Assembly: GCF_000515255.1 (NCBI RefSeq)
Contig: NZ_KI911559.1
Span: 1,816,824-1,880,823, forward strand
DNA length: 64,000 nt
Direction: 5' to 3'
DNA from: Rhodovibrio salinarum DSM 9154
Lineage (GTDB): Bacteria > Pseudomonadota > Alphaproteobacteria > Kiloniellales > Rhodovibrionaceae
The notes beneath the pieces were generated by a model, which ran no database searches, was not told the origin of the DNA, and saw only the letters and a list, made by a program, of their open reading frames with translations. Position 1 is the first letter of the stretch. Every line of letters begins with the position of its first letter. Made by a program: the position numbers and the translations under genes. Positions 35,177 to 54,092 of this stretch are shown here, piece by piece.

Positions 35177-37087
35177 ATGCACGCGGCGGGGCAGGGCTTG
35201 ATCGGCCTAAGCGGCTTGGTGGACTGGATCACACGCGGGTTGCCGGCGGTCGTGGTGGTGATCGGGATCGCCTCGGCCACGTTGCTCGCCCGTGAACTCG
35301 ACACCCGCGCCAACCAGCGCGCTGCCGCCGAATTCCAGCTGGAAACCGAGCGTGTCACGGCGCTGCTCAGTCTACAGGCCGACCGGCTGGAACAGCTCCT
35401 GCGCGGCACGGCCGCCTTCCTGGCAACCGATAGCACGGTCACGGCCGGCGCCTTTCACAATTACGTCGATAGCCTGGATCTGGTCGAACGCTTCCCCGGG
35501 GTGCGTGCGCTCGCCTTTAACCGCCGCATGCGTCCGGCAGATGAAACGGCGTTGCGCCGCCAACTTGTGAGCGATCCGACTCGCGCGGAGCTATCGTACC
35601 CGGCGTTCGAGGTCTGGCCCGAGACGGAGCAGAAGGTCCGCTTCCCCGCGATCTTGGTCGAACCGCAGCTCGGTAACAGTCAGGTGTTTGGGTATGACAT
35701 CTGGAGCGATCCCGACCGGCGGGCGGCGGCTTGGCAGGCGCTTGCCACCGGTCGACTTCAGGCGACGGCACCGGTGGTGCTATCGCAGGACGCCGGGCAA
35801 AGCCGTGTCAGCCAGGTGCTCGTGATGCCGGTGATCCGGCTCGCCAGCCTTGCGGAAACCGGGGCTGCGAGCGTACCGCAGTTCATCGGGTTCATAACCT
35901 CGGGCGTCAGCGTCGATGCGATGGTGTCCGGCGCTCCGGCCGCCGATCTGTTTCGGCGCACGGGCCTGAGCGTGTATGACGCCGGTCCACTCGACGTGCC
36001 CGAGGCGCAGCGCCCGCCCGCGCAACCGTTGGCGTTGTTCGACGCCACCGCAAAGGCCGAGGGCGCCCCGGAGCATACCAGCGAGATCACGTTCGCAGGT
36101 CGGCGCTGGGTGCTCAGCTTTAACGGCGAGGAGGCCTTCCACACACCTGTTCAGGAAGCGCTGACCTACGGCACTTTTCTGGGCGGCTCGGCGTTGAGCC
36201 TGCTGCTGGCTTTGCTCATCCAGCGCCTGACGAGCGAACGTCGGCGGCTGCGTGCCCAGGTGGCCGTCCGAGCGGCGGAATTACGGGGCGTCAACGCCGA
36301 GCTGCGCCACCGACTGGAAGAGATGAATGCGGCAATCCACGCCAAGTCACAGTTCCTTGCCAGCGTGAGCCACGAACTGCGCACCCCACTGAACGCAATC
36401 ATCGGCTTTTCCGAGATGTTGCAGTCGGAAGTGTTCGGGGCGTTGGGCAGCGCCAAGAATCGCGAATACGTGGATGACATCCACGCCGCTGGCGGGCGGC
36501 TGCTTTCCCAGGTCAATCAGTTGCTGGATCTGTCGCGGATCGAAGCGGGAGGGCGTGAGCTTCAGGACCAACCAGTCGACGTCGCCGCCGCGCTGTATCG
36601 TTGCCGTCAGTTGGTCACCCACATGAGCCATGGCGCTGGTCCTGCCGCCGAGCGGGCCAAGGTCCATGTGGAGGTTCCCCCCGACAAGCCGATGCTGCGC
36701 GCGGACGCGGATTCGATCGACCAGATCCTGCTCAACCTGGCGAGTAACGCGGTCAAGTTCTCGCCGCCCGGTGCGCTGGTACGGCTGGTTGCGGACTATG
36801 ACGACGACGGCGGTATCCGGTTGCGGGTGATCGATCAGGGGCCCGGCATTCCGGCCGATCATCAAGCCAAGATCACCGAACCATTCTATCAGGTCGCCGA
36901 CCAGCATTCGCGCGCGACCGAGGGCAGCGGCTTGGGGCTGACGATCGTCGACCGGCTGGCCCGGGCGCACGGCGCGCGCTTACTGACCGACAGTGTCCTA
37001 GGGCAGGGCACATCCATAAGCGTGCATTTCCCGTCGGACCGGACGATCCGGGAGACGCGGGACACTGCGCATCTGGCCACGGGGTGA
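35177..37087 (+). CDS. CHASE-domain sensor histidine kinase
   Basis: A 636-residue membrane kinase. The N-terminal helix LPAVVVVIGIASATLLARE is followed by a periplasmic CHASE1-type domain (~35-310; FPGVRALAFNRRM is typical), a second membrane helix (~333-350, LGGSALSLLLALLIQRL), a coiled-coil linker, the dimerisation box with His399 (FLASVSHELRTPLNAIIGFS) and the ATPase domain: N-box DQILLNLASNAVKFSP, DQGPGIP and GSGLGLTIV. The start at 35177 is the last ATG before the helix; 35042 and 35075 are alternatives without a binding site. No response regulator is adjacent. Its stop may overlap a GTG of the DUF3305 gene, so it could belong to the formate dehydrogenase transcript. Confidence 0.85.
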   Translation: MHAAGQGLIGLSGLVDWITRGLPAVVVVIGIASATLLARELDTRANQRAAAEFQLETERVTALLSLQADRLEQLLRGTAAFLATDSTVTAGAFHNYVDSLDLVERFPGVRALAFNRRMRPADETALRRQLVSDPTRAELSYPAFEVWPETEQKVRFPAILVEPQLGNSQVFGYDIWSDPDRRAAAWQALATGRLQATAPVVLSQDAGQSRVSQVLVMPVIRLASLAETGAASVPQFIGFITSGVSVDAMVSGAPAADLFRRTGLSVYDAGPLDVPEAQRPPAQPLALFDATAKAEGAPEHTSEITFAGRRWVLSFNGEEAFHTPVQEALTYGTFLGGSALSLLLALLIQRLTSERRRLRAQVAVRAAELRGVNAELRHRLEEMNAAIHAKSQFLASVSHELRTPLNAIIGFSEMLQSEVFGALGSAKNREYVDDIHAAGGRLLSQVNQLLDLSRIEAGGRELQDQPVDVAAALYRCRQLVTHMSHGAGPAAERAKVHVEVPPDKPMLRADADSIDQILLNLASNAVKFSPPGALVRLVADYDDDGGIRLRVIDQGPGIPADHQAKITEPFYQVADQHSRATEGSGLGLTIVDRLARAHGARLLTDSVLGQGTSISVHFPSDRTIRETRDTAHLATG

Positions 37088-37152
37088 ACCGACCGTTCGC
37101 CAAACTTGGTCTTCCGACTCCAATCCCCATACGATATGGCAGCGTGTCGACA

Positions 37153-37773
37153 ATGGGGTCGATGGGCGAGCCCCTCGTGATCGATGAAAAGGAGGCGCAC
37201 GGCGTCGTGGCGAGCTATATCGGGCAGGAAATCATGCCGGTCGGCGTGGTGGTGGAGCGTCGGGCGAGCGATCATCCCTGGCTTGACTACAGCTGGCACG
37301 CGGTCTCCGTGATCCCCAAGGCACCGGCGCTGGATCCCAAGGGCGACTGGCGCGGCCTGGTCGATGACGGTGCGGTCGCGCAATTCCATGCCGGTACGCT
37401 GGATCTCAGCCTGTTCCGGAAGGAGACCGAGGGGTACAAGCTGAACCTTTCGCAGCATCCCCCGCGGCTTTGGGTCGTGCTGCGCCGTGAGACGGAAGGC
37501 GAATGTCCGCACGAGGTGCTACCGTTCCACGTCACCGCCGATCCGATGGAAGCGCAGATCTATCTGGACACCGGCGACGACCTGGTCGATCCGGTGGTGA
37601 TGCCCGATGTTATCGCGGCCTGGATGAAGGACTATGTGGACCGCCATCATGTCGACCGGCCGTTCCATAAACGCAAGCGCACCCCTCACCCGGACAAGCA
37701 GGGCGGGGGCCACGGCTTCGAGCCGACGACTGGCAGCAGACGGGGATCTGGTAAGGCCCCCGGAAGCGGATGA
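37153..37773 (+). CDS. DUF3305 protein, formate dehydrogenase accessory
   Basis: A 206-residue cytoplasmic protein. The DUF3305 core is VGVVVERRASDHPWLDYSWH, then GTLDLSLFRKETEGYKLNLS and PPRLWVVLRRE. The C-terminal tail is basic and low in complexity. The family is found almost only in formate dehydrogenase loci, next to DUF3306 and TorD, but its activity is not established. The ATG at 37153 is my choice; a GTG at 37084 overlapping the kinase stop would add 23 residues. The DUF3306 gene follows after 33 bases. Confidence 0.85.
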   Translation: MGSMGEPLVIDEKEAHGVVASYIGQEIMPVGVVVERRASDHPWLDYSWHAVSVIPKAPALDPKGDWRGLVDDGAVAQFHAGTLDLSLFRKETEGYKLNLSQHPPRLWVVLRRETEGECPHEVLPFHVTADPMEAQIYLDTGDDLVDPVVMPDVIAAWMKDYVDRHHVDRPFHKRKRTPHPDKQGGGHGFEPTTGSRRGSGKAPGSG

Positions 37774-37806
37774 CTGGTGCGGGTGCGAGAGGTGAGGAGG
37801 TCGGCT

Positions 37807-38457
37807 ATGGCGGACAGTCGTGATGAAGGGTTCCTGACCCGTTGGGCGCGCCGTAAGCAGCGCGCCGCCCAGGCACCGGCGGCCAAGCCGGGGGCGCCCG
37901 AAACCCCGGCGGAGCCGGTCCCGAGCGCAACGGAGCGTACCGAGACCGAAGCCGCACGTCAGGAATGGATCGATAGCCTGCCCGAGCCGGAACAGCTGGG
38001 TCCAGAGGACGATTATGCGCAGTTCCTACAGGACGGCGTGCCGGACGAGCTGCGTCAGCGCGCCCTGCGTCGCCTTTGGAGCTCCAATCCGGTGTTCGCC
38101 AACCTGGATGGTCTGAACGACTATGACCTGGACTACACCGACGCGGCGACGGTGGTGGAGAACCTCAAGACCGCTTTCCAGGCCGGTCGCGGTATGGTGA
38201 CCAAGGAGGAGCGGGAAGCCGAAGCGGCCGCCTCTGCCGCCCCTGGTGAGGAACTTGCCGAGGAAGCGACGTCTGCGGAGACCGCAAACGAGCCCTCGGA
38301 CGCGCTTTCGGCAGAGGCGGACACCGCGCCCTCAGAGGAAGACAGCGTTTCGATGGCCGGGGAGGGGGCCCCATCCCCGCGGGAACGCTATCGGCCGAGA
38401 TCAGACGGGCAGAGTCGGGTGAAGGGTGCGGCGGCGCAGCGGCGATGGGGGAGTTAG
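37807..38457 (+). CDS. DUF3306 protein, formate dehydrogenase accessory
   Basis: A 216-residue hydrophilic protein. The N-terminal FLTRWARRKQRAA is the family signature, followed by an acidic core (EDDYAQFLQDGVPDELRQRA, LRRLWSSNPVFANLDGLNDY, DLDYTD). The last third is Glu/Ala-rich and probably disordered. DUF3306 pairs with DUF3305 in formate dehydrogenase operons. The start has a near-perfect GAGGTGAGGAGG 6 bases upstream. About 500 bases without a gene separate it from torD, so it may be on a different transcript from the fdh structural genes. Confidence 0.85.
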   Translation: MADSRDEGFLTRWARRKQRAAQAPAAKPGAPETPAEPVPSATERTETEAARQEWIDSLPEPEQLGPEDDYAQFLQDGVPDELRQRALRRLWSSNPVFANLDGLNDYDLDYTDAATVVENLKTAFQAGRGMVTKEEREAEAAASAAPGEELAEEATSAETANEPSDALSAEADTAPSEEDSVSMAGEGAPSPRERYRPRSDGQSRVKGAAAQRRWGS

Positions 38458-38961: not shown

Positions 38962-39570
38962 GTGTCCGACGGCCCGCCCGATTCCGGCAGTCTGGCAGAA
39001 GAAGACCAGCTGCGCGCCAACGTGTATATCTTGTTGGCGCAGTTGCTTGCGCGCGCGCCCCAGGCGGACCTGTTGCAGCAGGTGGCTGGCTTGCAGGGTG
39101 ACGACAGCCCGTTTGGCGAGGCTATGCGCGCGCTCGCGCATCAGGCCCAGCGCGCTACCCCGGATCAGATTGCGGACGAGCACTTCAACCTGTTCATCGG
39201 GGTCGGCGAGAGTGAGCTGGTCCCCTATGGCTCCTATTACCTGACCGGTTTCCTGAACGAAAAGCCGCTTGCCCGGTTGCGGGCCGACATGGCCGAGCTT
39301 GGTATCGCGCGCGCCGACGGCGTGCACGAGAGCGAGGACCACATCGCTGCGCTGTGCGAGATCATGGCCGGCCTGATCACGGGGGCGTTCGGCGATGCGG
39401 CGGATTTGAGCCAGCAACGGCGCTTCTTTCAGCAGCACATCGGGTGCTGGGCTCCGCGTTTCTTCGAAGACCTGGAAGCGGCCGCAGGCGCCGCTTTTTA
39501 CATGCCGGTGGGAAGTATTGGCCGGCTGTTCATGGAGGTCGAGAGCGAGGCCTTCGAGATGGCCGCTTAA
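38962..39570 (+). CDS. TorD-family molybdoenzyme maturation chaperone
   Basis: A 202-residue cytoplasmic chaperone that binds the Tat signal of the formate dehydrogenase large subunit and holds it for cofactor loading. All-helical, with the family motif E-H-F-N-L-F-I-G-V-G-E followed by PYGSYYLTGFLNEKPLARLR, and the ESEDHIAALCEIMAGLI block typical of TorD/DmsD. The start is GTG at 38962, with GAGGAGG 7-8 bases upstream. It precedes the Tat-signal protein and FdhA, in keeping with this role. Confidence 0.9.
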   Translation: MSDGPPDSGSLAEEDQLRANVYILLAQLLARAPQADLLQQVAGLQGDDSPFGEAMRALAHQAQRATPDQIADEHFNLFIGVGESELVPYGSYYLTGFLNEKPLARLRADMAELGIARADGVHESEDHIAALCEIMAGLITGAFGDAADLSQQRRFFQQHIGCWAPRFFEDLEAAAGAAFYMPVGSIGRLFMEVESEAFEMAA

Positions 39571-39685: not shown

Positions 39686-39937
39686 ATGAGCAGGAAGCAG
39701 CACAAGACCGGGGCGGATGCCCAAGCCGATCAGCCTGACGCCGCGCGGCGGAAATTCGTGCGTTCGGCCGGCCTTGGCCTCGGCGCGGCCGGGGCGGCGG
39801 CGGTCTATTTCGGCCGTGGCGGCAGTGACGAAGCGCAAGCCGCACAGCCGGAGAAAGCTGGCGGCCAAGGCAAGACGCAGGCCGGCTATCAGGAAACCGA
39901 CCACGTCCGTCGCTATTACCAGTTGGCGCGGTTCTAG
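39686..39937 (+). CDS. Small twin-arginine signal protein of formate dehydrogenase region
   Basis: An 83-residue protein resembling the small Tat-target proteins found next to formate dehydrogenase genes (TIGR02811 type). It has the twin-arginine motif in AARRKFVRSAGLGLGAAGAA, a hydrophobic stretch, then a short polar tail ending QETDHVRRYYQLARF. The ATG has GAGAGGAGA upstream. It sits between torD and fdhA. Such proteins probably travel with, or anchor, the FdhA complex, but no biochemical role is established. The longer frame starting at 39518 is not the gene. Confidence 0.85.
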   Translation: MSRKQHKTGADAQADQPDAARRKFVRSAGLGLGAAGAAAVYFGRGGSDEAQAAQPEKAGGQGKTQAGYQETDHVRRYYQLARF

Positions 39938-40060
39938 GGCGCTTGGCCGACTAAGTCTCCGGCGTCAGCAGGGCCTGAGCCCCGAACCGGGATTGCAGCC
40001 CCCGCGCCGAGCCATCTGGCCAAGGGTCTGCCAGCAGATCGCAAGTTGAGGAGTCGAGCG

Positions 40061-42937
40061 ATGCTCACCAAGAAATCCAGCGGCACGACCCGCAGCTCCC
40101 GCCTGTCCAAGGCGGCCGTCGGTTTCACCGGCGGGGCGATGGACCGCCGCGCCTTTCTGAAGCGCTCGGGCCTGACCGCCGGCGGTGTGGCTGTCGCCTC
40201 CACCATGGACTTCGGGATGGTGAAGAAGGCGCAGGCGCAGTCCGGCGTGGACCCGAAGGCCAAGATCCAGATCAAGAAGTCGGTCTGCAGTCACTGCTCG
40301 GTCGGTTGCACGGTGATGGCTGAGGTGCAGAACGGCGTCTGGGTCGGGCAGGAGCCCGGCTGGGACAGCCCGTTTAACCTGGGCACGCACTGCGCCAAGG
40401 GCGCGTCGGTCCGCGAGCACGCGCACGGCGAGCGCCGCCTGAAGACTCCGATCAAGATGGAAGGCGGCAAGTGGAAAAAGCTCTCCTGGGAGCAGGCGAT
40501 CGACGAGATCGGCGACAAGCTGCTGCAGATCCGTGAGGAGAGCGGGCCGGACTCGGTCTACTGGCTGGGCTCGGCGAAGCACAACAACGAGCAGTCCTAT
40601 CTGTTCCGCAAGTTCGCCGCCTTCTGGGGCACCAACAACGTCGACCACCAGGCGCGCATCTGCCACTCGACCACGGTCGCGGGCGTAGCCAATACCTGGG
40701 GCTACGGCGCGATGACCAACAGCTACAACGACATCCATAACTCGGCGGCGATCTTCCTGATCGGCGGCAATCCGGCCGAGGCCCACCCGGTGTCGATGCA
40801 GCATCTGCTCAAGGCCAAGGAACAGAACAACGCGCCGCTGATCGTCTGCGACCCGCGCTTCACGCGCACGGCCGCGCACGCCGACGAGTACGTCCGGCTG
40901 CGTCCGGGGACCGACGTCGCGTTGGTCTGGGGTCTCCTGTGGCACGTCTTCCAGAACGGCTGGGAAGACAAGACCTACATCCGCCAGCGTGTCTGGGGCA
41001 TGGACCAGATTCGCGACGAGGTCGCGCAGTGGACCCCGGAAGAGGTGGAGCGCGTTACCGGCGTGCCCGGCAGCCAGCTCGAGCGCGTCGCGCGCACGCT
41101 GGCGAACAACCGGCCGTTCACGATCATCTGGTGCATGGGCGGCACGCAGCACACCAACGGCAACAACAACACCCGCGCCTACTGCATCCTGGGGCTGGCG
41201 TTGGGCGTGATCGGCAAGTCTGGCGGCGGCACCAACATCTTCCGCGGCCACGACAACGTGCAGGGCGCCACCGACCTGGGTGTGCTGTGCCACACCTTGC
41301 CTGGCTACTACGGCCTGTCGGAGGGGGCGTGGAAGCACTGGTCGCGCGTCTGGGACGTCGATTACGACTATCTGCAGGGCCGGTTCCATAACAAGGAGAT
41401 GATGGAATCGCCGGGCGTGCCGGTCTCGCGCTGGTTCGACCTAGCCCTGGAGGATGCCGAGAACATCGAGCAGCCCAATCCGCTGCGCGCGATGATCTTC
41501 GACGGGCACGCGCCGAACAGCCAGACCCGCCTTCCCGACATGAAGAAGGCGATGGAAAAGCTGGATATGCTGGTCGTCATCGACCCCTATCCGACGATGA
41601 CCGCGGTGATGCAGGACCGCACCGAGGGCACGTATCTGCTGCCCGCCTGCACGCAGTTCGAGACCTACGGCTCGGTCACCGCGTCGAACCGCTCGATCCA
41701 GTGGCGCCAGCAGGTCGTCGAGCCGATCTTCGAGAGCAAGCCCGACCAGGAGATCCTGTACCGGATCGCCGAGAAGGTCGGCATAGCCGATCAGCTGTTC
41801 AAGCACATCAAGGTTGAGAACAAGCAGCCGGTCATCGAGGACCTGACCCGCGAGTTCAACCGCGGCATGTGGACGATCGGCTACACCGGCCAGTCGCCGG
41901 AGCGCATGAAACTCCACATGGCCAACCAGCACACCTTCGATAAGACCACGCTGAAGGCCGTCGGCGGCCCGGCGGACGGCGACTACTACGGCATGCCCTG
42001 GCCGGCCTGGGGCACGCCGGAGATGAAGCACCCCGGCACGCCCAACCTGTACGACACCTCCAAGCCGGTGGCCGAGGGCGGCCTGTGCTTCCGCGCCCGC
42101 TTCGGCGTGGAGCGCGACGGGCAGAACCTGCTCGCCGAGGGCTCCTATCCGGTCGGCTCGGAGATTCAGGACGGCTATCCCGAGTTCACGATGGCGATGC
42201 TCAAGAAGCTCGGCTGGGACAAGGATCTGACCGAGGACGAGCGCAGCACGATCGAGAACATCGCGGGCGACAAGACCAACTGGAAGACCGACCTGTCGGG
42301 CGGCATCCAGCGCGTCGCGATCAAGCACGGCTGCGCACCGTTCGGCAACGCCAAGGCGCGCTGCGTGGTCTGGAACTTCCCGGACCCGGTGCCGGCCCAC
42401 CGCGAGCCGCTGTACACCGCGCGGCGCGACCTGGTAGCCGACTACCCGACCTACGAGGACCGGCGGATGTACCGTCTGCCGATCATGTACAAGTCGATCC
42501 AGGCGCAGGACTACTCGCAGGATTTCCCGTTGATCCTGACCTCCGGACGGCTGGTCGAGTACGAGGGCGGCGGCGAGGAAACCCGCTCCAACCCGTGGCT
42601 TGCCGAACTGCAGCAGGACATGTTCATCGAGATCACCGCGTTCGACGCCAACAACCTCGGCGTGCGCGACGGGGCGATGGTCTGGGTGCACTCGCCCGAA
42701 GGCTCGAAGATCAAGGTCAAGGCCATGGTCACCGAACGCGTGGGCCGTGGCGTGGTGTTCATGCCGTTCCACTTCGGCGGCTGGTGGCAGGGCGAGAGCC
42801 TGCGCGACAAGTACCCCAAGGGCACCGATCCGTACGTCCTGGGCGAGGCGTCCAACACGGCGCAGACCTACGGCTACGACTCGGTCACCAACATGCAGGA
42901 AACCAAGGCCACGCTGTGCCGCGTGGCGCCGGCGTAA
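40061..42937 (+). CDS. fdhA: Formate dehydrogenase molybdenum/tungsten subunit, cysteine type
   Basis: Catalytic subunit that oxidises formate to CO2 at a bis-MGD centre, exported by Tat. It is 958 residues. The twin-arginine signal is MDRRAFLKRSGLTAGG (Arg29-Arg30) with cleavage near AQAQS. The [4Fe-4S] ligands are Cys76, Cys79, Cys83 and Cys111 in VCSHCSVGCTV and THCAKG. The metal ligand is Cys201, followed by His202, in ARICHSTTVAGVANTWGYGA; E. coli FdnG has selenocysteine there. C-terminal MGD-binding block: DFPLILTSGRLVEYEGGGEE. GAGGAG lies 8 bases before the ATG at 40061. It partners FdhB and FdhC downstream. Confidence 0.95.
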   Translation: MLTKKSSGTTRSSRLSKAAVGFTGGAMDRRAFLKRSGLTAGGVAVASTMDFGMVKKAQAQSGVDPKAKIQIKKSVCSHCSVGCTVMAEVQNGVWVGQEPGWDSPFNLGTHCAKGASVREHAHGERRLKTPIKMEGGKWKKLSWEQAIDEIGDKLLQIREESGPDSVYWLGSAKHNNEQSYLFRKFAAFWGTNNVDHQARICHSTTVAGVANTWGYGAMTNSYNDIHNSAAIFLIGGNPAEAHPVSMQHLLKAKEQNNAPLIVCDPRFTRTAAHADEYVRLRPGTDVALVWGLLWHVFQNGWEDKTYIRQRVWGMDQIRDEVAQWTPEEVERVTGVPGSQLERVARTLANNRPFTIIWCMGGTQHTNGNNNTRAYCILGLALGVIGKSGGGTNIFRGHDNVQGATDLGVLCHTLPGYYGLSEGAWKHWSRVWDVDYDYLQGRFHNKEMMESPGVPVSRWFDLALEDAENIEQPNPLRAMIFDGHAPNSQTRLPDMKKAMEKLDMLVVIDPYPTMTAVMQDRTEGTYLLPACTQFETYGSVTASNRSIQWRQQVVEPIFESKPDQEILYRIAEKVGIADQLFKHIKVENKQPVIEDLTREFNRGMWTIGYTGQSPERMKLHMANQHTFDKTTLKAVGGPADGDYYGMPWPAWGTPEMKHPGTPNLYDTSKPVAEGGLCFRARFGVERDGQNLLAEGSYPVGSEIQDGYPEFTMAMLKKLGWDKDLTEDERSTIENIAGDKTNWKTDLSGGIQRVAIKHGCAPFGNAKARCVVWNFPDPVPAHREPLYTARRDLVADYPTYEDRRMYRLPIMYKSIQAQDYSQDFPLILTSGRLVEYEGGGEETRSNPWLAELQQDMFIEITAFDANNLGVRDGAMVWVHSPEGSKIKVKAMVTERVGRGVVFMPFHFGGWWQGESLRDKYPKGTDPYVLGEASNTAQTYGYDSVTNMQETKATLCRVAPA

Positions 42938-42990: not shown

Positions 42991-43584
42991 ATGGCACGCA
43001 TGAAATTCCTTTGCGACGCCGAGCGCTGCATCGAGTGCAACGCCTGTGTCACCGCCTGCAAGAACGAGAACGAGGTGCCCTGGGGCGTGAACCGCCGGCG
43101 CGTCGTCACCATCAACGACGGCAAGCCGGGCGAACGCTCGATCTCGGTGGCCTGCATGCACTGTTCGGATGCGCCGTGCATGGCCGTCTGTCCGGTAGAC
43201 TGCTTCTACATGACCGAAGAGGGCGTGGTGCTCTGGTCGAAGGACCTGTGCATCGGCTGTGGCTACTGCTTCTACGCCTGCCCCTTCGGCGCCCCGCAGT
43301 ACCCGCAGGCGGGCAACTTCGGCTCGCGCGGCAAGATGGACAAGTGCACCTTCTGCGCTGGCGGCCCGGAGGAGGACAACTCCGCCGACGAGTTCGCCAA
43401 ATACGGCTCTAACCGCTTGGCCGAGGGCAAGCTGCCGCTGTGCGCGGAGATGTGCTCGACCAAGGCGCTGCTCGCCGGCGACGGCGACACGGTCGCCGAC
43501 ATCTACCGCGAGCGTGTGGTCGCGCGCGGCTTCGGCTCCGGCGCCTGGGGCTGGGGCACGGCCTACGAGCAGAAGGCTGGCTAG
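42991..43584 (+). CDS. fdhB: Formate dehydrogenase iron-sulfur subunit
   Basis: A 197-residue electron-transfer subunit carrying four [4Fe-4S] clusters. The Cys groups are CIECNACVTACKNENEVPWG near the N-terminus, CMHCSDAPCMAVCPVDCFY, CIGCGYCFYACPFGAPQYP, and a later set KCTFCAGG with CAEMCSTKAL. It lacks the C-terminal membrane helix of E. coli FdnH, so it probably docks directly on FdhC. The ATG has GGGAGTAGAG upstream. It is the second structural gene after fdhA, 53 bases away. Confidence 0.93.
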   Translation: MARMKFLCDAERCIECNACVTACKNENEVPWGVNRRRVVTINDGKPGERSISVACMHCSDAPCMAVCPVDCFYMTEEGVVLWSKDLCIGCGYCFYACPFGAPQYPQAGNFGSRGKMDKCTFCAGGPEEDNSADEFAKYGSNRLAEGKLPLCAEMCSTKALLAGDGDTVADIYRERVVARGFGSGAWGWGTAYEQKAG

Positions 43585-43728: not shown

Positions 43729-43926
43729 ATGATCAGGTCATTCGCCCGTCTGCTGACGCTCGCCATGCTCGGCGGGACCTTGCTGGTTGCGGCCGGCTGC
43801 AAGGAAGCGGAGCAGAACCGCGTGCTGTTCCATGAGCCCGGCGTCTACAAGGGGCAGAAGGACCAGGGAATCAGCGACGAAACCTATCAGGAACTGCGCC
43901 AGCGCGCCCGCCGGCAGGCGGGTTAG
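43729..43926 (+). CDS. Small putative lipoprotein between fdhB and fdhC
   Basis: A 65-residue secreted protein. A basic, hydrophobic signal (MIRSFARLLTLAMLGGTLLV) ends in a lipobox LVAAGC, so Cys24 is likely lipidated. The mature part is short and polar (KEAEQNRVLFHEPGVYKGQK, then ETYQELRQRARRQAG). I do not recognise the family. The frame is open upstream to 43594, but the signal peptide sets the start at 43729. The ribosome binding site is weak, and an 8-codon frame overlaps its start as ATGA. Position inside the fdh cluster suggests a periplasmic role with the complex. Confidence 0.65.
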   Translation: MIRSFARLLTLAMLGGTLLVAAGCKEAEQNRVLFHEPGVYKGQKDQGISDETYQELRQRARRQAG

Positions 43927-44093
43927 GCGCGCACCTGAGGGCAAGCGTCCGCCGGTTGCCGCTTGGTTGAGCGACCTGCGGTTGGTTGGACGCAACGCTG
44001 CCGCATATGACGGGCATATACTGCGGTCTTGCGGGCGTCAGGCGTCCTGCAGATGCGTAAGACCGCCGAATTGAGGTGAGGAACCAGGACACG

Positions 44094-45248
44094 ATGTCCA
44101 GTCAGCGCACGCAGTCGGTCGCGCGCCGGCAAGACGCCGGCGGGTGGTTGTTTCCGCTGCTGGCGACTTTGATCGTCGCCGTCTTTCTGACGCTAGCCGC
44201 GAGTTCGCCCGCGTGGGCGCAGTCCGGCACCGCGGACCCGTCCGTGACCGCGGAACAGCCGACGCGCGGTCAGATCCCCGGCAACGCGTTGGGCGGCACC
44301 AACGACACCGAATTTTGGAAGATGATTCGTCAAGGCCAATCGGGCACGGTGTCGCAGCCGGATAAGAAGCTCGGCGTGCTCGTGGACTCCAGCGGGGAGA
44401 ACTGGCGCGCAATCCTGAACGGTCCGGTGAAGGTCTATGGCGCCTGGCTGATCCTCGGCGTGTTGGCGCTGTTGGCGCTGTTCTATGCCCTGCGCGGACG
44501 TGTTCCGGTGGACGGCGGCTTTTCCGGCAAGACGGTCGAGCGTTTCACCACCCTTGACCGTTTCGCGCACTGGCTGTCGGCGACCTCCTTTGTGATCCTG
44601 GCGTTCACCGGCCTGAACCTCGTTTACGGCAAGTACTTTCTGCTGCCGCTGATCGGCCCGTCCGCTTTCTCCTGGATCACGCAGGCCGGCAAGTACGCGC
44701 ACAACTTCGTCGCCTTCGCCTTCATGGCCGGCGTGATCATGATGTTTCTGCTGTGGGTGCGCTTCAACATCCCGAAGAAGCACGACCTGACCTGGCTGGC
44801 GAAGGGCGGCGGCATCTTCGATTCCAAGGTCCATGCACCCTCCGAGCGGTTCAATGCGGGCCAGAAGGGGGTCTTCTGGCTGGCCTGCCTGGGCGGGCTC
44901 AGCCTGTCGATGTCGGGGATCGCGCTGCTGTTCCCCTTCGAGTTCGGTTTCTTCGGCAAGACCTTTGCCGCGCTGAACGGTCTCGGTCTGGATTTGCCGG
45001 CCCAACTCAGCCCGCTGCAAGAGCAGCAGCTCAATCAGATTTGGCATTCGATCCTGGCGTTCGTGCTGATCGCGGTCATGCTGGCCCACGTCTATATCGG
45101 TTCGGTCGGCATGCAGGGGGCCTTCTCGGCGATGGGCTCCGGCCAGGTCGACGTGAACTGGGCGGAAGAGCACCACAACATGTGGTATGCGCGCTTGGTG
45201 GAGGAAGGCCGGGCGCCGCCGTCCAACCAAATTCATCCGGCCGAGTGA
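44094..45248 (+). CDS. fdhC: Formate dehydrogenase cytochrome b subunit
   Basis: A 384-residue membrane subunit that takes electrons from FdhB to quinone through two b haems. It has an N-terminal signal-like helix (LLATLIVAVFLTLAASSPAW), a periplasmic linker, then four core helices with His ligands: DRFAHWLSATSFVILAFTGL, GKYAHNFVAFAFMAGV, and IWHSILAFVLIAVMLAHVYI. The long N-terminal extension is typical of alphaproteobacterial FdoI-like proteins. The ATG at 44094 follows GAGGTGAGGA by about 12 bases; a GTG at 44076 is an alternative. The 126-residue protein gene begins five bases after the stop. Confidence 0.93.
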   Translation: MSSQRTQSVARRQDAGGWLFPLLATLIVAVFLTLAASSPAWAQSGTADPSVTAEQPTRGQIPGNALGGTNDTEFWKMIRQGQSGTVSQPDKKLGVLVDSSGENWRAILNGPVKVYGAWLILGVLALLALFYALRGRVPVDGGFSGKTVERFTTLDRFAHWLSATSFVILAFTGLNLVYGKYFLLPLIGPSAFSWITQAGKYAHNFVAFAFMAGVIMMFLLWVRFNIPKKHDLTWLAKGGGIFDSKVHAPSERFNAGQKGVFWLACLGGLSLSMSGIALLFPFEFGFFGKTFAALNGLGLDLPAQLSPLQEQQLNQIWHSILAFVLIAVMLAHVYIGSVGMQGAFSAMGSGQVDVNWAEEHHNMWYARLVEEGRAPPSNQIHPAE

Positions 45249-45253
45249 CTGAT

Positions 45254-45634
45254 ATGCCGTGTCCAACCTGCCGTCGCGCCGGCCTTCTCGCCGGCGTGGC
45301 CGCCGCCCTGCTGCTCGCCGTCAGCCTGCCAGCCAGCGCGGCGCTCGACCGGGCAGACCTCGAACAGCGCGTCGAGAAGGCCTTCCAAGCCCGGGTCCTC
45401 AAGATTCGGGAGGGGACGTTGCAGGGCCGCGCGGTTTTGTTCGTCACCATGATGCGCGAGCAGGCCAACTCGAACGCCGCCTTCAAGGTCGATACGCTGG
45501 CCTTCGATCCGGAAACGGGGGCGGCGTTGCGGGGGCGTGTGCCGGACGTGCGCAACGACGCAGCCGTGCCCAAGCGCGAGACCCAGATGATCGATCGGCG
45601 TCCGGACGTGCTGCGCGGACGGCCCTGGCGCTGA
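45254..45634 (+). CDS. Secreted 126-residue protein of the fdh operon
   Basis: Starts with MPCPTCRRAGLLAGVAAALL, a signal peptide (cleavage near ASA-AL). The mature domain (~95 residues) has a helix (DRADLEQRVEKAFQARVLKI) and a beta-rich middle (TLQGRAVLFVTMMREQANSN, AAFKVDTLAFDPETG), then a basic Arg-rich end. There is no Cys in the mature part, so no haem or metal cluster is evident. I do not recognise the family. It is tightly packed: five bases after fdhC and one base before the WD40-cytochrome gene. A GTG at 45246 is another possible start. Confidence 0.7.
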   Translation: MPCPTCRRAGLLAGVAAALLLAVSLPASAALDRADLEQRVEKAFQARVLKIREGTLQGRAVLFVTMMREQANSNAAFKVDTLAFDPETGAALRGRVPDVRNDAAVPKRETQMIDRRPDVLRGRPWR

Positions 45635-45635
45635 G

Positions 45636-47009
45636 ATGGTGGGACCGGCGGTGGCAGCGCTGGCGCGCGTGTCCCGACGGTTCCGACGATGGGCGACTGC
45701 GCTTGCACTCGCCGCCGCGTTTGCCGGCACGTCCATGGCGACGGCCGGCCTAAGCGGCCACGGCGGTCCGGTCACGGCCATCGCGATCTCACCGGACGGT
45801 CGGCTCGCCTTGACGGCGTCGTTCGACTACACCCTCAAGCTTTGGGATCTCGATCGACAGGTGCCGCTGCAAACGCTGCGCGGACACACCGGCGCGGTCA
45901 CCACCGTCGCCTTCCTGCCCGACAGTCGGCAGGCGCTCTCCGGCGGCGACGACGGTAAGCTGCGCTTGTGGGATGCCGCCTATGGCCAGGAATTGCACGT
46001 GTTCGACGCGCATCGCGGCAAGGTGGCCGACCTCGCCGTGTCGCCGGATGGCATGCGCGCGGTCAGTGCCGGTTGGGATGGGCAGGTGCGGCTTTGGGAC
46101 CTGACGGCGCGCCGGTCACTGCGCACGTTGGACGCGGACGCCGGCATGGTGAACGCGGTCGCCTTCACCGCCGACGGCCAGCAGATGGTTGCGGTCGGGG
46201 CGCAGGGACATGCCCAGCTGCATGCGCTGGCTCGCGGCGGGCGGTCGAGGGAACTGCCGGGCCAAGGGCTCGGGATCAACACCCTCGCGCTGACAGGGGA
46301 CGGTCGGGCGCTTGCCGGTGGGGTCGACGGTCGGCTGCACGTCTGGTCCCTCGACAGTGGCACGCGGATCGGCGCGTTGGATGCGCACGACGGGCCGCTC
46401 AGCGCCGTCGCCGTTACGGGCGATGGGGCGACGGTGGCGACCGCCGGCACCGACGGTTTGATCCGACTCTGGACGCTGGGGTCGCGGAGGCTGCGCCATA
46501 CCTTGAGCGCCGTCGCGGCGCCGGTCTGGGATCTGGCCTTCACGCCCGACGGGACGCGCCTGCTTGCAGCGGGTGGGGATGGTACGGCGCGCCTGTTCGA
46601 CGTCGCAACCGGCAAGCCGATTGGCGGGCAGGTGCGCGGTGTCGACACCCGCCTGCCGGAGCCGGACAGCCGCGGGGCGGCGCTCTTCCGCAAGTGCGCG
46701 GCCTGTCACACTCTGACCCGGGACGGGGGCAACCGCGCGGGGCCGACGCTCTACAAGCTGTTCGGCCGCAAGGCCGGTACTGTGCCGGGCTACGACTATT
46801 CCCGGGCTTTGGCGCGTGCGGATCTGGTCTGGACGAAGGAGACGGTGAGCCGCCTGTTCGCCCAGGGCCCGCACGTGGTGACGCCGGGTAGCAAGATGCC
46901 GATCCAACGCATGCCGGACGCCGATGACCGGCGCGCGTTGATCGCCTATATCGAACGTCACGCGATGCCGGATGGGGCGGCACCCACCGGCTCAGGGACC
47001 AGGGAGTAG
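45636..47009 (+). CDS. Periplasmic seven-bladed WD40 propeller fused to cytochrome c
   Basis: A 457-residue protein. A signal peptide (RFRRWATALALAAAFAGTSM) is followed by seven WD40-like repeats (~38-335), e.g. SFDYTLKLWDL, GGDDGKLRLWDA, GWDGQVRLWDL, GTDGLIRLWTL and GGDGTARLFDV, enough for a closed propeller. The C-terminal class I cytochrome c has CAACH at 354-358 and Met421 or Met426 in GSKMPIQRMP as likely sixth ligand. GPTLYKLFGRKAGTVPGYDY is typical of small cytochromes c. It starts one base after the preceding gene, so it is in the fdh operon. Probable role: a docking scaffold plus electron carrier for formate-derived electrons; this is inferred. Confidence 0.85.
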   Translation: MVGPAVAALARVSRRFRRWATALALAAAFAGTSMATAGLSGHGGPVTAIAISPDGRLALTASFDYTLKLWDLDRQVPLQTLRGHTGAVTTVAFLPDSRQALSGGDDGKLRLWDAAYGQELHVFDAHRGKVADLAVSPDGMRAVSAGWDGQVRLWDLTARRSLRTLDADAGMVNAVAFTADGQQMVAVGAQGHAQLHALARGGRSRELPGQGLGINTLALTGDGRALAGGVDGRLHVWSLDSGTRIGALDAHDGPLSAVAVTGDGATVATAGTDGLIRLWTLGSRRLRHTLSAVAAPVWDLAFTPDGTRLLAAGGDGTARLFDVATGKPIGGQVRGVDTRLPEPDSRGAALFRKCAACHTLTRDGGNRAGPTLYKLFGRKAGTVPGYDYSRALARADLVWTKETVSRLFAQGPHVVTPGSKMPIQRMPDADDRRALIAYIERHAMPDGAAPTGSGTRE

Positions 47010-47016
47010 AAGAGCG

Positions 47017-47145
47017 ATGCGTGCTTTCATCACCGCCGTGGCCGCGCTGCTGGTGCTGTCCGTGGGCGCCGGCGCGATCATGACCGCCGCGAACCCGACG
47101 ACGACGCAGGAATACGCCACCGACAACGTCCGTCTCGGCGATTAG
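47017..47145 (+). CDS. 42-residue hydrophobic small protein ending the fdh operon
   Basis: ATG at 47017 with AGGGAGTAGAAGAGCG upstream, seven bases after the WD40-cytochrome stop. The product is a hydrophobic N-terminal helix (MRAFITAVAALLVLSVGAGA) and a short polar tail ending EYATDNVRLGD. It could be a single-pass membrane peptide or a secreted 20-residue peptide after signal cleavage. I do not recognise it. Its tight spacing and good binding site argue for a real gene. It is convergent with the COQ10-like gene. Confidence 0.6.
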   Translation: MRAFITAVAALLVLSVGAGAIMTAANPTTTQEYATDNVRLGD

Positions 47146-49596: not shown

Positions 49597-52368
49597 CTAC
49601 TCCGCCGCCTGTTTCTCCTTATCCAGCTCGATCCGGGCGGCGCAGAACTTGAACTCGGGGATCTTGCCATCCGGGTCGATCTGCGGATTGGTCAGGACGT
49701 TGGCGGCGGCTTCGGCGTAGGCGAAGGGGATGAAGATCATGCCTGATGGCACTTCCCGGTCGGCGCGCAGCACGAGCGCGATCGAGCCGCGACGGGTGGT
49801 GACGCGCACCCGCTGGCCGGCGCGCCAGCCGCGCTTGCCGATTTCGCGCGGGTGCATCGAGACGATCGCCTCCGGCTCCAGGTGGTCGAGCACACGCGCC
49901 CGGCGGGTCATCGCGCCGGTGTGCCAGTGTTCGAGCTGCCGGCCGGTGGTCAGTACCAGCGGATAGTCCTGGTCGGGCAACTCGGCTGGCGGGGTGATGT
50001 CGACCGGCTTCATGCCGCCGCGTCCGCTCGGTGTCGGGAAGCCTTCGGAGAACACGATCGGTTCGCCCGGATGGTCCGGGGCCGGGCAGGGGTAGGTGAC
50101 CGACCCCTCGCGCTCCAGCCGGTCCCAGGTGATGTTGGCGAGCGACGGCATGATACCGGCCATTTCGGCGTAGACCTCGCGCACCTGGGCGAAGCCGAAG
50201 TCGTGGCCCATTCGCCGGGCGATCTCGTGGGTGATCCACCAGTCCTGGCGCGCCTCGCCGGGCAGCGAAATCGCCGGGCGGCCCAACTGCACCTGCCGGT
50301 TGGTGTTGGTGTAGGTGCCGGTTTTCTCCTGCTGGGCGGAAGCGGGCAGGACCACGTCGGCGTGGAAGGCCGTTTCGGTCAGGAAGATCTCCTGCACCAC
50401 CAGATGCTCCAGCTTGGCGAGCGCGGCGCGGGCGTGCGTCTGGTCCGGGTCGGACATCGCCGGGTTTTCGCCCATGACGTACATGCCCTTGATCTCGCCG
50501 TCGTGGGCCGCGTTGACGATCTCCACGACCGTCAGACCCTTCTGCCCGTCCAGTTCGGTGCCCCAGTAGTCCTCGAACTGCTGCTTGAAGTCGGCGTTGG
50601 TGACCGGCTTGTAGTCCGGGAAGACCATCGGGATCATCCCGGCATCCGAGGCGCCCTGGACGTTGTTCTGCCCGCGCAGCGGATGCAGGCCGGTTCCCTT
50701 GCGCCCGATCTGGCCGGTCGACAGCGCCAGGTTGATCAGGCTGCGGGAATTGTCGGTGCCGTGGACGTGCTGGCTCACCCCCATGCCCCAGAAGATGATC
50801 GAGGCGTTGGAGGTCGCGTAGGCGCGCGCACACTCCTTGATCGTCTGGGCGTCGACGCCGACCAGTTCCGCCATCTCTTTCGGCGGGAAGTCCTTGACCT
50901 TCTCGCGCAGCGCCTCGACGCCGTCGGCATGCGCCTGGATGTACTGCGTGTCCTCCAGCCCCTCGGCGAAGATGGTGTGCAGCATGGCGTTCAACAGCGC
51001 CACATCCTGGCCTGGCTTGAACTGCACGTTGCGCCAGGCGTAGCGGCCGAGCTGCACCTGATAGCGTGGGTCCATCACGATCAGCTTGGCGCCGTTCTTG
51101 GCGGCCTGTTTCAGGTAGCTCGCCGCGACCGGATGGTTTTCGGTTGGGCGGGCGCCGATCACGATGATGCACTCGGCGTCGCTGGCCGCGTTGAACGGTG
51201 CGGAGACGCCGCCGGAGCCGAGGTTCTCCATCAGCGCCGCGACCGAGGAGGCGTGGCACAGCCGGGTGCAGTGGTCGACGTTGTTGGTGCCGAAGGCGAC
51301 CCGCACCGTCTTCTGGAACAGGTAGGCTTCCTCGTTCGTGCCCTTGGCGGAGCCGAAGCCGGCCAGCGCGCCCGATCCGTCGCGGTCGCGGATGCGTTGC
51401 AGGCCGCCCGCCGCGACCTCCAGCGCTTCCTCCCAGCTGGCTTCGCGGAAGTGGGTCCAGGGGTTGGCGGGATCGACCTTGTCGTCGCCGCGCTTGGGCG
51501 CGTCCGCCCGGCGGATCATCGGCACCTGCAGGCGATGCGGATGGCGGCTGTAGTCGGTGCCGAAACGGCCCTTCACGCACAGCCGCTGTTCGTTGGACGG
51601 ACCGTTGCGCCCGTCGACCGAGATGATCCGGTCGTCCTTGACGTTGTAGGTAACCTGGCAGCCGACCCCGCAGAAGGGGCAGACGCTCTCGACCTGCGTG
51701 TCGGGCCATTCGGTGCGGGTCTGCTGCTCGTCCAACAGCGCGCTTTCCATCAGCGCGCCGGTTGGGCAGGCCTGCACGCACTCCCCGCAGGCCACGCAGG
51801 TGCTCTCGCCCATCGGGTCGTCGAAGTCGAACACCACCTTGGCGTCGTGACCGCGGTGGGCGAGGCCGATCACGTCGTTGACCTGGACCTCGCGGCAGGC
51901 CCGGACGCACAGGTTGCAATGGATGCAGGCGTCCAGGTTGACCGCCATCGCCGGATGGCTGGTATCCGGCTGCCACTGCTCGCGCTCGGGAAAGCGGGAC
52001 TGCGCGACGCCGACCTGGTCGGCCCAGTGCCAGAACTGGCTGGTCGGGTCGTGGCTGGTCTCCCGCGCGGGCTGGTCAGAAACCAGCAACTCGAACACCA
52101 GCTCGCGGGCCCGGCTGGGGCGGTCCCCAGCCACGGACACTTTCATGCCCTCGCTTGGCTTTCGGATGCAGGAAGCGGCCAGCGCGCGCTCGCCTTCCAC
52201 CTGCACCATGCAGGCCCGGCAGTTACCGTCCGGCCGGTAGCCGGGCTCCGGGCGGTGGCACAGGTGGGGAATCTCGATGCCTTCGCGCTTGGCGACCGTC
52301 CAGATGGTCTCACCGGGCGCGGCCTCGACCGTCCGGCCGTCGATCTCGAATCGGATGGTGTCGGTCAT
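49597..52368 (-). CDS. fdsA: NAD-dependent formate dehydrogenase catalytic subunit
   Basis: A 923-residue cytoplasmic molybdenum/tungsten formate dehydrogenase subunit, with no Tat signal. The N-terminal [2Fe-2S] domain has Cys37, Cys50, Cys53 and Cys67. A His-ligated cluster motif and two [4Fe-4S] ferredoxin motifs (CIHCNLCVRACREVQVNDVI, CVACGECVQACPTGAL) follow, then the catalytic domain starts CPFCGVGCQVTYNVKDDRI. The active-site Cys is in HCTRLCHASSVAALMENLGS. It overlaps the fused fdsG-fdsB gene by ATGA, so the two subunits are coupled. It links formate oxidation to NAD+ reduction. Confidence 0.95.
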   Translation of the reverse strand: MTDTIRFEIDGRTVEAAPGETIWTVAKREGIEIPHLCHRPEPGYRPDGNCRACMVQVEGERALAASCIRKPSEGMKVSVAGDRPSRARELVFELLVSDQPARETSHDPTSQFWHWADQVGVAQSRFPEREQWQPDTSHPAMAVNLDACIHCNLCVRACREVQVNDVIGLAHRGHDAKVVFDFDDPMGESTCVACGECVQACPTGALMESALLDEQQTRTEWPDTQVESVCPFCGVGCQVTYNVKDDRIISVDGRNGPSNEQRLCVKGRFGTDYSRHPHRLQVPMIRRADAPKRGDDKVDPANPWTHFREASWEEALEVAAGGLQRIRDRDGSGALAGFGSAKGTNEEAYLFQKTVRVAFGTNNVDHCTRLCHASSVAALMENLGSGGVSAPFNAASDAECIIVIGARPTENHPVAASYLKQAAKNGAKLIVMDPRYQVQLGRYAWRNVQFKPGQDVALLNAMLHTIFAEGLEDTQYIQAHADGVEALREKVKDFPPKEMAELVGVDAQTIKECARAYATSNASIIFWGMGVSQHVHGTDNSRSLINLALSTGQIGRKGTGLHPLRGQNNVQGASDAGMIPMVFPDYKPVTNADFKQQFEDYWGTELDGQKGLTVVEIVNAAHDGEIKGMYVMGENPAMSDPDQTHARAALAKLEHLVVQEIFLTETAFHADVVLPASAQQEKTGTYTNTNRQVQLGRPAISLPGEARQDWWITHEIARRMGHDFGFAQVREVYAEMAGIMPSLANITWDRLEREGSVTYPCPAPDHPGEPIVFSEGFPTPSGRGGMKPVDITPPAELPDQDYPLVLTTGRQLEHWHTGAMTRRARVLDHLEPEAIVSMHPREIGKRGWRAGQRVRVTTRRGSIALVLRADREVPSGMIFIPFAYAEAAANVLTNPQIDPDGKIPEFKFCAARIELDKEKQAAE

Positions 52369-54092
52369 GTTTCGAGATCCTCAGGGAAGTACTTGAAGAC
52401 GCAGTCGATCGGGTTCGGAGCTGCCTGGCCAAGGCCACAGATCGAGGCATCACGCATGACCTGCGACAGGTCGGCGAGCAGTTCCTGGTCCCAGCGGTCG
52501 CGTTCCAACAGCTTGACCGCCTTCTCGGTGCCGTTGCGACACGGCGTGCACTGACCGCAGCTTTCGGCCTTGAAGAAGCGCATCAGATTGCGCGCGGCGG
52601 CCTTGATGTCGTCCTGGTCGCTCAGGATCACGATCGCCGCGGAGCCGATGAAGCAGCCGTATTCGTCCAGCGACCCGAAATCGAGCGGGATGTCGCTCTT
52701 GCTGGCCGGCAGGATGCCGCCGGACGCGCCGCCCGGCAGGTAGGCCTTGAAGCTGTGCCCCTCGGCCATGCCGCCGCAGTACTCGTCGATCAGCTCGCGC
52801 ACCGTGATCCCGGCCGGGGCGTGCTTGACGCCCGGCTCCTTCACCCGGCCGGAGACGGAGAAGAGACGTAGGCCCGAGCGCCCGTTGCGGCCCTTGCCGG
52901 CGAACCATTGCGGGCCGTGCTGGATGATGTCGCGCACCCAGTACAGCGTCTCGACGTTGTTGGTCAGGGTCGGCTGGCCGAACAGGCCGACCTCGGCGGC
53001 GAACGGCGGCTTGTGCCGGGGGAGGCCGCGCTTGCCCTCGATCGATTCCAGCATCGCCGATTCTTCGCCGCAGATGTAGGCGCCTGCGCCACGGCGCAGG
53101 TAGACCGGGCAGATGCGGTCGATGTAGCCAGCGCGCGCGACCCGGTCCAACGCCTCCTGCAGCAGGCGGTTCACTTTCGGATATTCGTCGCGCAGATAGA
53201 TGTAGCAGGCATCGGCCTGTACCGCGGCGCTCGCGATCAGCGCGCCCTCCAGGAAGCGGTGCGGGTCGCGCTCCATGCACCAGCGGTCCTTGAAGGTGCC
53301 GGGTTCGCCCTCGTCGGCATTGATCGCGACGTAGTGGGGATGCGGCTGCTGGCGGACGATTCCCCACTTCTTGCCGGCCGGGAAGCCGGCGCCGCCCAGG
53401 CCGCGCAGATTGGCGTCGGACAGCGCGCCGACGATGCTGTCAAACGTGCGTCGTCCGTCCAGCAACTCCTGCAGTACGGTATAGCCGCCGTGGGCGACGT
53501 AGGTCTCGTAGTCGACCGGCGTGGGCTCGTGCAGCTCCATCGGTCCGCCGGCCGCCGCGATCGCCAAGCTGGAGAGGGTGGCGTGGTGCATGTGCCCCTG
53601 ATGGCCGATTTCGGCCACCGGGGCGGTGTCGCAGCGGCCCATGCATGGGCCCGAAAGCACCCGGATCTTGTCGCTGACCGCTTGCGGCAGCTTGGCCAGC
53701 AACTCCTGGGCGCCGGCCATCTCGCACGCGATGCCGTCGCACACGCGGATGGTCAGATCCGGTGGCGGTGTCTCGCCGTCATCGACGATGTCGAAATGGG
53801 CGTAGAAGCTGGCCACCTCGTAGACCACCGCCATCGGCAGGCGCATCTCCTCCGCCAGCGCATGCAGGTGGCGGGCGTGCAGGCAGCCGAAGTGGTCCTG
53901 TAGCAGGTGCAGATGCTCGATCAGCAGATCGCGTTGACGGGAGCGGTCGCCCAGCAGTGCACGCACCGCGTCAGCGGCTTCAGGGTCGAGCTGCCGGCCC
54001 TTGGGGGTCGGCGGTGCGTTACGCCGCCCAGATCCGGGGGCGATCTGACGCTCTAGGGGGCGCTGCGGGGGAGGTGGGTTGCCGTCGGCCAT
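52365..54092 (-). CDS. fdsB: NAD-dependent formate dehydrogenase diaphorase, fused gamma-beta (FdsG-FdsB)
   Basis: A 575-residue NuoE-NuoF fusion. The N-terminal ~160 residues carry a [2Fe-2S] site (VCDGIACEM and GPCMGRCDTAP) as in FdsG/NuoE. The rest is FdsB/NuoF: the FMN/NADH-binding GLGGAGFPAGKKWG, DEGEPGTFKDRWCMERDPHR, GAYICGEESAMLESIEGKRG, and the [4Fe-4S] motif ESCGQCTPCRNGTEK plus a later Cys. FdsG and FdsB are separate genes in many bacteria; here they are one polypeptide. AAGGATGAGG lies upstream of the ATG. It is upstream of fdsA. No FdsC or FdsD is adjacent. Confidence 0.93.
   Translation of the reverse strand: MADGNPPPPQRPLERQIAPGSGRRNAPPTPKGRQLDPEAADAVRALLGDRSRQRDLLIEHLHLLQDHFGCLHARHLHALAEEMRLPMAVVYEVASFYAHFDIVDDGETPPPDLTIRVCDGIACEMAGAQELLAKLPQAVSDKIRVLSGPCMGRCDTAPVAEIGHQGHMHHATLSSLAIAAAGGPMELHEPTPVDYETYVAHGGYTVLQELLDGRRTFDSIVGALSDANLRGLGGAGFPAGKKWGIVRQQPHPHYVAINADEGEPGTFKDRWCMERDPHRFLEGALIASAAVQADACYIYLRDEYPKVNRLLQEALDRVARAGYIDRICPVYLRRGAGAYICGEESAMLESIEGKRGLPRHKPPFAAEVGLFGQPTLTNNVETLYWVRDIIQHGPQWFAGKGRNGRSGLRLFSVSGRVKEPGVKHAPAGITVRELIDEYCGGMAEGHSFKAYLPGGASGGILPASKSDIPLDFGSLDEYGCFIGSAAIVILSDQDDIKAAARNLMRFFKAESCGQCTPCRNGTEKAVKLLERDRWDQELLADLSQVMRDASICGLGQAAPNPIDCVFKYFPEDLET

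Follow-up and report, generated by a model that had tools for sequence, protein, structure and literature searches.

A WD40 propeller–cytochrome c fusion linked to FDH3-type formate dehydrogenase genes in Alphaproteobacteria

Many Alphaproteobacteria carry a gene for a propeller-cytochrome protein, together with a gene for a tiny membrane protein, near the genes of a periplasmic formate dehydrogenase, and both products look like dedicated partners of that enzyme. The link between the fusion and formate dehydrogenase, as read from gene content and gene position, is strongly supported. We propose that the fusion works in the periplasm as an electron-transfer partner dedicated to FDH3, a role that we rate at about an even chance and in which the electrons would come from FdhB. 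Formate occupies a central position in one-carbon and autotrophic metabolism, and there is interest in FDH3-type enzymes as catalysts of CO2/formate conversion. If FDH3 does have a cytochrome c partner of its own, the energy yield of formate for the cell would change, and the partner would provide a natural docking module with which the enzyme could be wired. Gene deletion could directly test which electron acceptor FDH3 uses in Alphaproteobacteria, now that the fusion, the split forms and the microprotein are known.

The fusion protein and its operon

The fusion gene lies at 45636–47009 on the plus strand of the analysed stretch of Rhodovibrio salinarum DSM 9154 (the whole 64,000 nucleotides, hereafter the window) and forms a single frame of 457 aa with no stop inside. 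Its N-terminus is a hydrophobic signal region, as judged by eye, with a helix at residues 4–30 of the model. WD40 repeats follow (Pfam PF00400, E 3.2e-58, 192 bits vs. a cut-off of 27; five stretches are each significant alone), and the C-terminal part is a class I cytochrome c with a single haem site, CAACH, at residues 354–358. Seven blades were counted from the strands of an AlphaFold2 model (alignment of 25 sequences, mean pLDDT 86.1), and in Foldseek this model matched WD40 propellers best, including two with a 7-bladed description (1.3 and 1.4 Å). When compared with relatives in the alignment by eye, blade 4 of the window's fusion looks degenerate. The initial annotation had described a signal peptide, seven WD40-like repeats and a CAACH cytochrome in one frame, and the open reading frame, PF00400 and the model agree with that description. 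Among 76 fused copies, which had been selected with a cytochrome profile, CxxCH was present in all and PGxKM in 72, with a Met retained by eye in the remaining four. The cytochrome domain matches the CycA model NF043008 (E 6.8e-15) at 55.4 bits, below the cut-off of 240, and its identification as cytochrome c-550 CycA was rejected on that score.

The operon around the fusion runs on the plus strand and opens with a DUF3305 protein (37084–37773; Pfam PF11749, E 3.9e-39) and a DUF3306 protein (37777–38457; Pfam PF11748, E 1.6e-24), a pair that has been noted earlier beside fdh operons, according to the available part of the source (PMC4464133). A TorD/NarJ-type chaperone (38962–39570; Pfam PF02613, E 4.8e-31) and a small twin-arginine signal protein come next (39686–39937; 83 aa, RRKFVRSAG in the translation); S. 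meliloti, Bradyrhizobium and Salipiger have a small gene in the same position, labelled either 'formate dehydrogenase' or 'twin-arginine translocation signal'. The catalytic subunit FdhA (40046–42937, with an alternative ATG at 40061) carries a twin-arginine motif and matches TIGR01591, the general Fdh-alpha equivalog, at 491.9 bits, under the cut-off of 666.25. Its nearest solved chain is 9vap_A (1433 bits over residues 32–962), which makes it an alpha subunit of the SoFdhA kind. FdhB (42991–43584), whose nearest solved chain is 9vap_B, scores 343.5 bits against the FDH3 model NF038355 (cut-off 240), and a hydropathy scan of it found no membrane segment, including a C-terminal helix. The fusion had been placed inside a formate dehydrogenase operon by the initial annotation; this placement stands, and the beta subunit score defines the operon as FDH3 type.

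Between fdhB and fdhC is a small lipoprotein-like ORF (43729–43926; 65 aa, read from its translation, with a sub-threshold Pfam match only), relatives of which occur at part of the related loci. The cytochrome b subunit FdhC (44076–45248, with an N-terminal extension and a further ATG at 44094) matches TIGR01583 at 151.2 bits (cut-off 115.85). Four of its His align with His of 1kqf_C (E. coli FdnI) that we take to be haem-b ligands; FdhC thus has the four haem-b histidines of an Fdh-N-type gamma subunit, and quinone reduction is predicted for it. Because these four His are retained, the fusion cytochrome would be an extra exit beside the quinone route and not a substitute for it, and the possibility that it replaces a broken FdhC was rejected.

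The gene directly ahead of the fusion (45254–45634) encodes a small secreted protein of 126 aa, not a catalytic fdh subunit. This protein is PepSY-like by eye only, Pfam and NCBIfam searches at E 0.1 gave no match, and some of the related loci carry relatives of it. Its stop ends at 45634 and the fusion ATG is at 45636, which is exactly the one-base distance given originally. A microprotein of 42 aa, with one hydrophobic segment and the end ...NVRLGD, is encoded after the fusion (47017–47145) and was recognised from its translation and conservation. The order is therefore DUF3305, DUF3306, TorD, twin-arginine protein, fdhA, fdhB, lipoprotein-like ORF, fdhC, secreted protein, fusion, microprotein. 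Given gaps of 5 bases (fdhC to secreted protein), 1 base (secreted protein to fusion) and 7 bases (fusion to microprotein), the genes from fdhC to the microprotein look like one transcript. Near the FDH3 operon, the minus strand carries a second molybdopterin enzyme with NADH-dehydrogenase-like iron-sulfur domains (49597–52368), adjoined by a 575-aa ORF (the two spanning 49597–54092); together they are probably a cytoplasmic NAD-linked formate dehydrogenase.

Co-occurrence of the fusion, its split forms and a microprotein with FDH3

Of the 385 genomes in a class sample, 55 had the FDH3 beta subunit, 37 had the full fusion and 35 had both (Fisher one-sided p 4.9e-33, uncorrected for kinship). 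The remaining two fusion genomes (G058 and G283) have fdh gene pieces flanking the fusion at contig ends and were rejected as FDH3-less cases. Among 38 fusion places in this sample, an FDH3 beta gene was no more than 5 kb away in 28 and no more than 15 kb away in 32; unlinked copies lay 252 kb (G401) and 85 kb (G091) from FDH3. Ten class FDH3 genomes had a propeller match that ended before the cytochrome, and 10/55 had neither the fusion nor a counted propeller match, some of these loci ending at a contig end. The class search for the fusion gave 61 genomes, of which 48 were used in the linkage count; the 13 excluded (G147, G168, G172, G180, G183, G204, G238, G252, G265, G275, G363, G380, G381) had matches confined to the propeller region, for the most part within long frames. 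One of them, G183, has a microprotein beside its match and may be a further propeller locus.

Within the order (58 genomes), the fusion was found in 45 genomes, the FDH3 beta subunit in 46 and both in 44, a count that omits a truncated beta match at a contig end in G001 and includes the truncated matches in G010, G017 and G057. The one order genome with a fusion but no full FDH3 beta match (G024) is an assembly of about 640 contigs. Thirty-eight of the 45 order fusion genes were within 5 kb of FDH3 beta on the same contig and one was at 9.7 kb; six had no FDH3 beta match on their contig. The initial annotation had called for a comparison of alphaproteobacterial fdh operons and would have given up the link if homologues occurred mostly outside fdh loci. 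We found the opposite: the fusion tracks FDH3 in 35/37 class and 44/45 order fusion genomes, and most copies (28/38 and 38/45, respectively) are no more than 5 kb from it.

Across the phylum (398 genomes), the full fusion was identified in 22 genomes, all from the class and all with FDH3 (22/22); ten of these also belong to the class sample. At E 1e-70, it was found in 0/32 FDH3 genomes of the phylum sample outside the class. Two gammaproteobacterial MAGs carry a relative of the fusion on contigs where no fdh gene was found; one of them has FDH3 on another contig and the other is without an FDH3 beta match. The fusion also matched 18 plasmid records, five of which were examined. Gene order differs among the records: the fusion gene is about 10 kb upstream of fdh3B in S. 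meliloti and Bradyrhizobium plasmids, it directly follows the gamma subunit gene in Salipiger and Sulfitobacter plasmids, and it is in the upstream order in an unannotated Methylobacterium bullatum record. Record labels for the gene were 'hypothetical protein' or 'c-type cytochrome'. Beside the fusion of S. meliloti (L223, 5132–10533), we also observed molybdopterin genes and genes of an ABC transporter, solute-binding protein included, whose substrate may be tungstate or molybdate.

The propeller and the cytochrome are not always joined. At nine loci (L045, L123, L128, L138, L139, L148, L162, L167, L228), the propeller gene stops once the final blade is complete, and the cytochrome c is encoded by a gene of its own that adjoins and faces it; L045 and L128 are close relatives, as are L139 and L148, so the nine represent fewer independent cases. 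Among the ten class FDH3 genomes with a propeller-only match, seven had a separate cytochrome gene beside it and three did not. At these three (L117, L150 and L229), no cytochrome gene was found near the propeller gene on the fetched loci, which argues against the cytochrome being needed at every locus. In G161 (L125, 10169–11674), the propeller-cytochrome frame is broken by a stop, and this locus was counted as propeller-only for that reason; its relative L163 is whole.

In the cytochrome tree (111 columns; the root depends on the outgroup chosen), 46 fused domains formed one clade (99/94), with four split cytochromes as the nearest group (99/96) and four others placed deeper. Fused and split domains together were separate from 27 other class I cytochromes c (98/91); these generic cytochromes were a thinned set in both trees made (every second, every third). 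The long-branched solo cytochrome of L167 was included in the quick tree and omitted from the careful one. In the propeller tree, three of the same four split loci were beside the fused group (SH-aLRT 99) and L228 was deeper than in the cytochrome tree; the outgroup of this tree is poor, since it does not fall on one side of a branch, and the fused group needs two changes, with one outgroup fragment falling inside it. On these trees, the simplest reading would be one joining of neighbouring propeller and cytochrome genes at this locus. The adjacency of propeller and cytochrome in both the split and the joined state is good evidence that the two work together. Counting against this picture are the three propeller loci that lack a cytochrome, the small number of columns behind the cytochrome tree and the dependence of its root on the outgroup.

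The microprotein that follows the fusion represents a family of roughly 40-residue proteins that have a single hydrophobic segment and, in most copies, VRL at the C-terminus; no Pfam or NCBIfam model matched it at E 0.1. Of 83 places of its gene, 43 were directly after the fusion, 8 after the solo cytochrome of a split locus and 9 after fdhC, with 23 elsewhere on the stretch. In the order, it was present in 46/58 genomes, one copy each, and these were 46 of the 47 genomes with FDH3 or the fusion and 0/11 of the others (one of the 11, G001, has the truncated FDH3 match left uncounted). In the class, it was detected in 30/230 genomes, all 30 with FDH3 or a propeller match; in G107 it is away from the FDH3 place, and among the 230 genomes searched none was found in G058, which has the fusion. 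When 102 class FdhB loci were considered, the microprotein was on 54/63 with the fusion, 7/7 with separate propeller and cytochrome genes, 2/3 with a propeller only, and 9/29 without a propeller on the fetched stretch, several of the 29 having a propeller gene elsewhere in the genome or a contig end. Outside the class, it was on 2/20 FdhB loci. The microprotein thus tracks FDH3 in the order and less regularly in the class, and it is not at every FDH3 locus. A tie to the fusion alone was rejected, given its presence at split, propeller-only and propeller-less FdhB loci.

Proposed role of the fusion and alternatives

Docking of the fusion on formate dehydrogenase and a second exit for formate electrons, as suggested in the initial annotation, appear plausible. 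Beyond the co-location of the fusion and FDH3, we infer every step of this mechanism. Periplasmic FdhAB would oxidise formate, and FdhC could pass the electrons to quinone. The propeller of the fusion would dock on the periplasmic FdhAB(C) complex, and its haem may accept electrons at the outermost FdhB iron-sulfur cluster and then pass them on, either to the pool of soluble cytochrome c or to an oxidase. Two COX1-family oxidase genes in the source genome are candidate acceptors, with cytochrome c or quinol both conceivable as their donor. Formate electrons would in this way have two exits, to quinone via FdhC and to cytochrome c via the fusion. The one-helix VRL microprotein might be a small membrane subunit of the FDH3 complex. 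The broadest version of the proposal is tentative, and we rate it as less likely than not: that alphaproteobacterial FDH3 is a two-exit enzyme which, in addition to reducing quinone through FdhC, acts as a formate:cytochrome c oxidoreductase, with a dedicated cytochrome held by the seven-bladed propeller and a new 40-residue, one-helix subunit of its membrane arm with a periplasmic VRL tail.

The likely partner within FDH3, judging from one genome, is the iron-sulfur subunit FdhB. In Marivibrio halodurans, the fusion gene is immediately preceded by a second copy of fdhB, on a different contig from the main fdhABC operon. The two copies (L042, 7241–7845; L182, 1493–2097) are 605 bases long and 99.2% identical; the four differences that fall within the gene are silent, so that the proteins are identical.

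The fusion could instead be an assembly, stability or quality-control factor, in which the propeller holds the FDH3 complex or small subunits and the haem is redox-sensing or structural. WD40 domains usually act as scaffolds, the propeller occurs with no cytochrome seen nearby in L117, L150 and L229, and further small secreted or membrane proteins surround the fusion, all of which would suit such a role. Nonetheless, the haem motif in 76/76 fused copies, the retained Met, and the likeness of the fusion cytochrome to ordinary class I electron carriers are more in line with electron transfer, and we regard an assembly role as rather unlikely. It is also conceivable that the fusion is a safety valve that, once the quinone pool is full, draws electrons off over-reduced iron-sulfur clusters and so protects the enzyme in air. 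With FdhC intact, a second exit could serve such an overflow, and the available text describes Shewanella FdhAB, the closest relative with a solved structure, as tolerant of oxygen (PMC13397495). That same text, as far as it is available, describes the tolerance without such a partner (PMC13397495), and the fusion was in none of the 32 FDH3 genomes of the phylum sample outside the class, which makes the safety valve improbable.

Electron transfer from FDH3 remains our preferred role for the fusion, and the chance that it is only a neighbour carried along with the operon, with no part in formate oxidation, seems very slight to us. A few unlinked fusion copies and the existence of FDH3 genomes without the fusion would be expected of a mere neighbour. 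The same link, however, recurs in named Hyphomicrobiales, Rhodobacterales and Rhodospirillales, it persists near FDH3 although gene orders vary (downstream, convergent, upstream), and split and fused forms alike have retained it.

Comparison with known systems

A full-text literature search, to which subscription papers were mostly external, returned nothing on a WD40 cytochrome in connection with formate dehydrogenase. In Verrucomicrobia, genes for planctomycete-specific cytochrome c domains can also encode WD40, according to the available part of one paper (PMC5615132), and since WD40 joined to other kinds of cytochrome is thus known, such a fusion alone is no proof of a formate role. Those proteins differ from the window's fusion in their cytochrome family and their other domain partners (PMC5615132), and formate dehydrogenase was absent from the text of that paper as available to us. 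Cytochrome c-550 (CycA) is likewise class I, whereas the window's domain is below the CycA cut-off and fused to a propeller.

The gamma subunit of E. coli formate dehydrogenase N (1KQF) aligns with the window's FdhC, the four His being common to both. To our knowledge, the E. coli enzyme has no c-type cytochrome. Its beta subunit has a C-terminal membrane tail, as given in the accessible part of the source (PMC10924467), in contrast to the window's FdhB, which is without one by hydropathy scan. The best match of the window's FdhA and FdhB chains is Shewanella oneidensis FdhAB (PDB 9VAP). Methylobacterium papers, in their accessible parts, term Fdh3 'cytochrome-linked' (PMC5784242, PMC6520949). 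Unlike the window, neither Shewanella FdhAB nor Methylorubrum extorquens Fdh3 comes with a propeller-cytochrome in the portions of their descriptions available to us.

A parallel is found in sulfate reducers, where periplasmic formate dehydrogenases have multihaem cytochrome partners, as stated in the available text (PMC13397495). In Desulfovibrio, FdhABC3 and the periplasmic enzyme with tetrahaem cytochrome c3 pair a periplasmic formate dehydrogenase with a c-type cytochrome that receives its electrons (PMC13397495), as is proposed for the fusion. The Desulfovibrio-type partner, as described there, has four haems and the enzyme is without an integral membrane subunit, whereas each of the 76 fused copies has one CxxCH after the propeller, and the window combines this single haem on a propeller with an FdhC.
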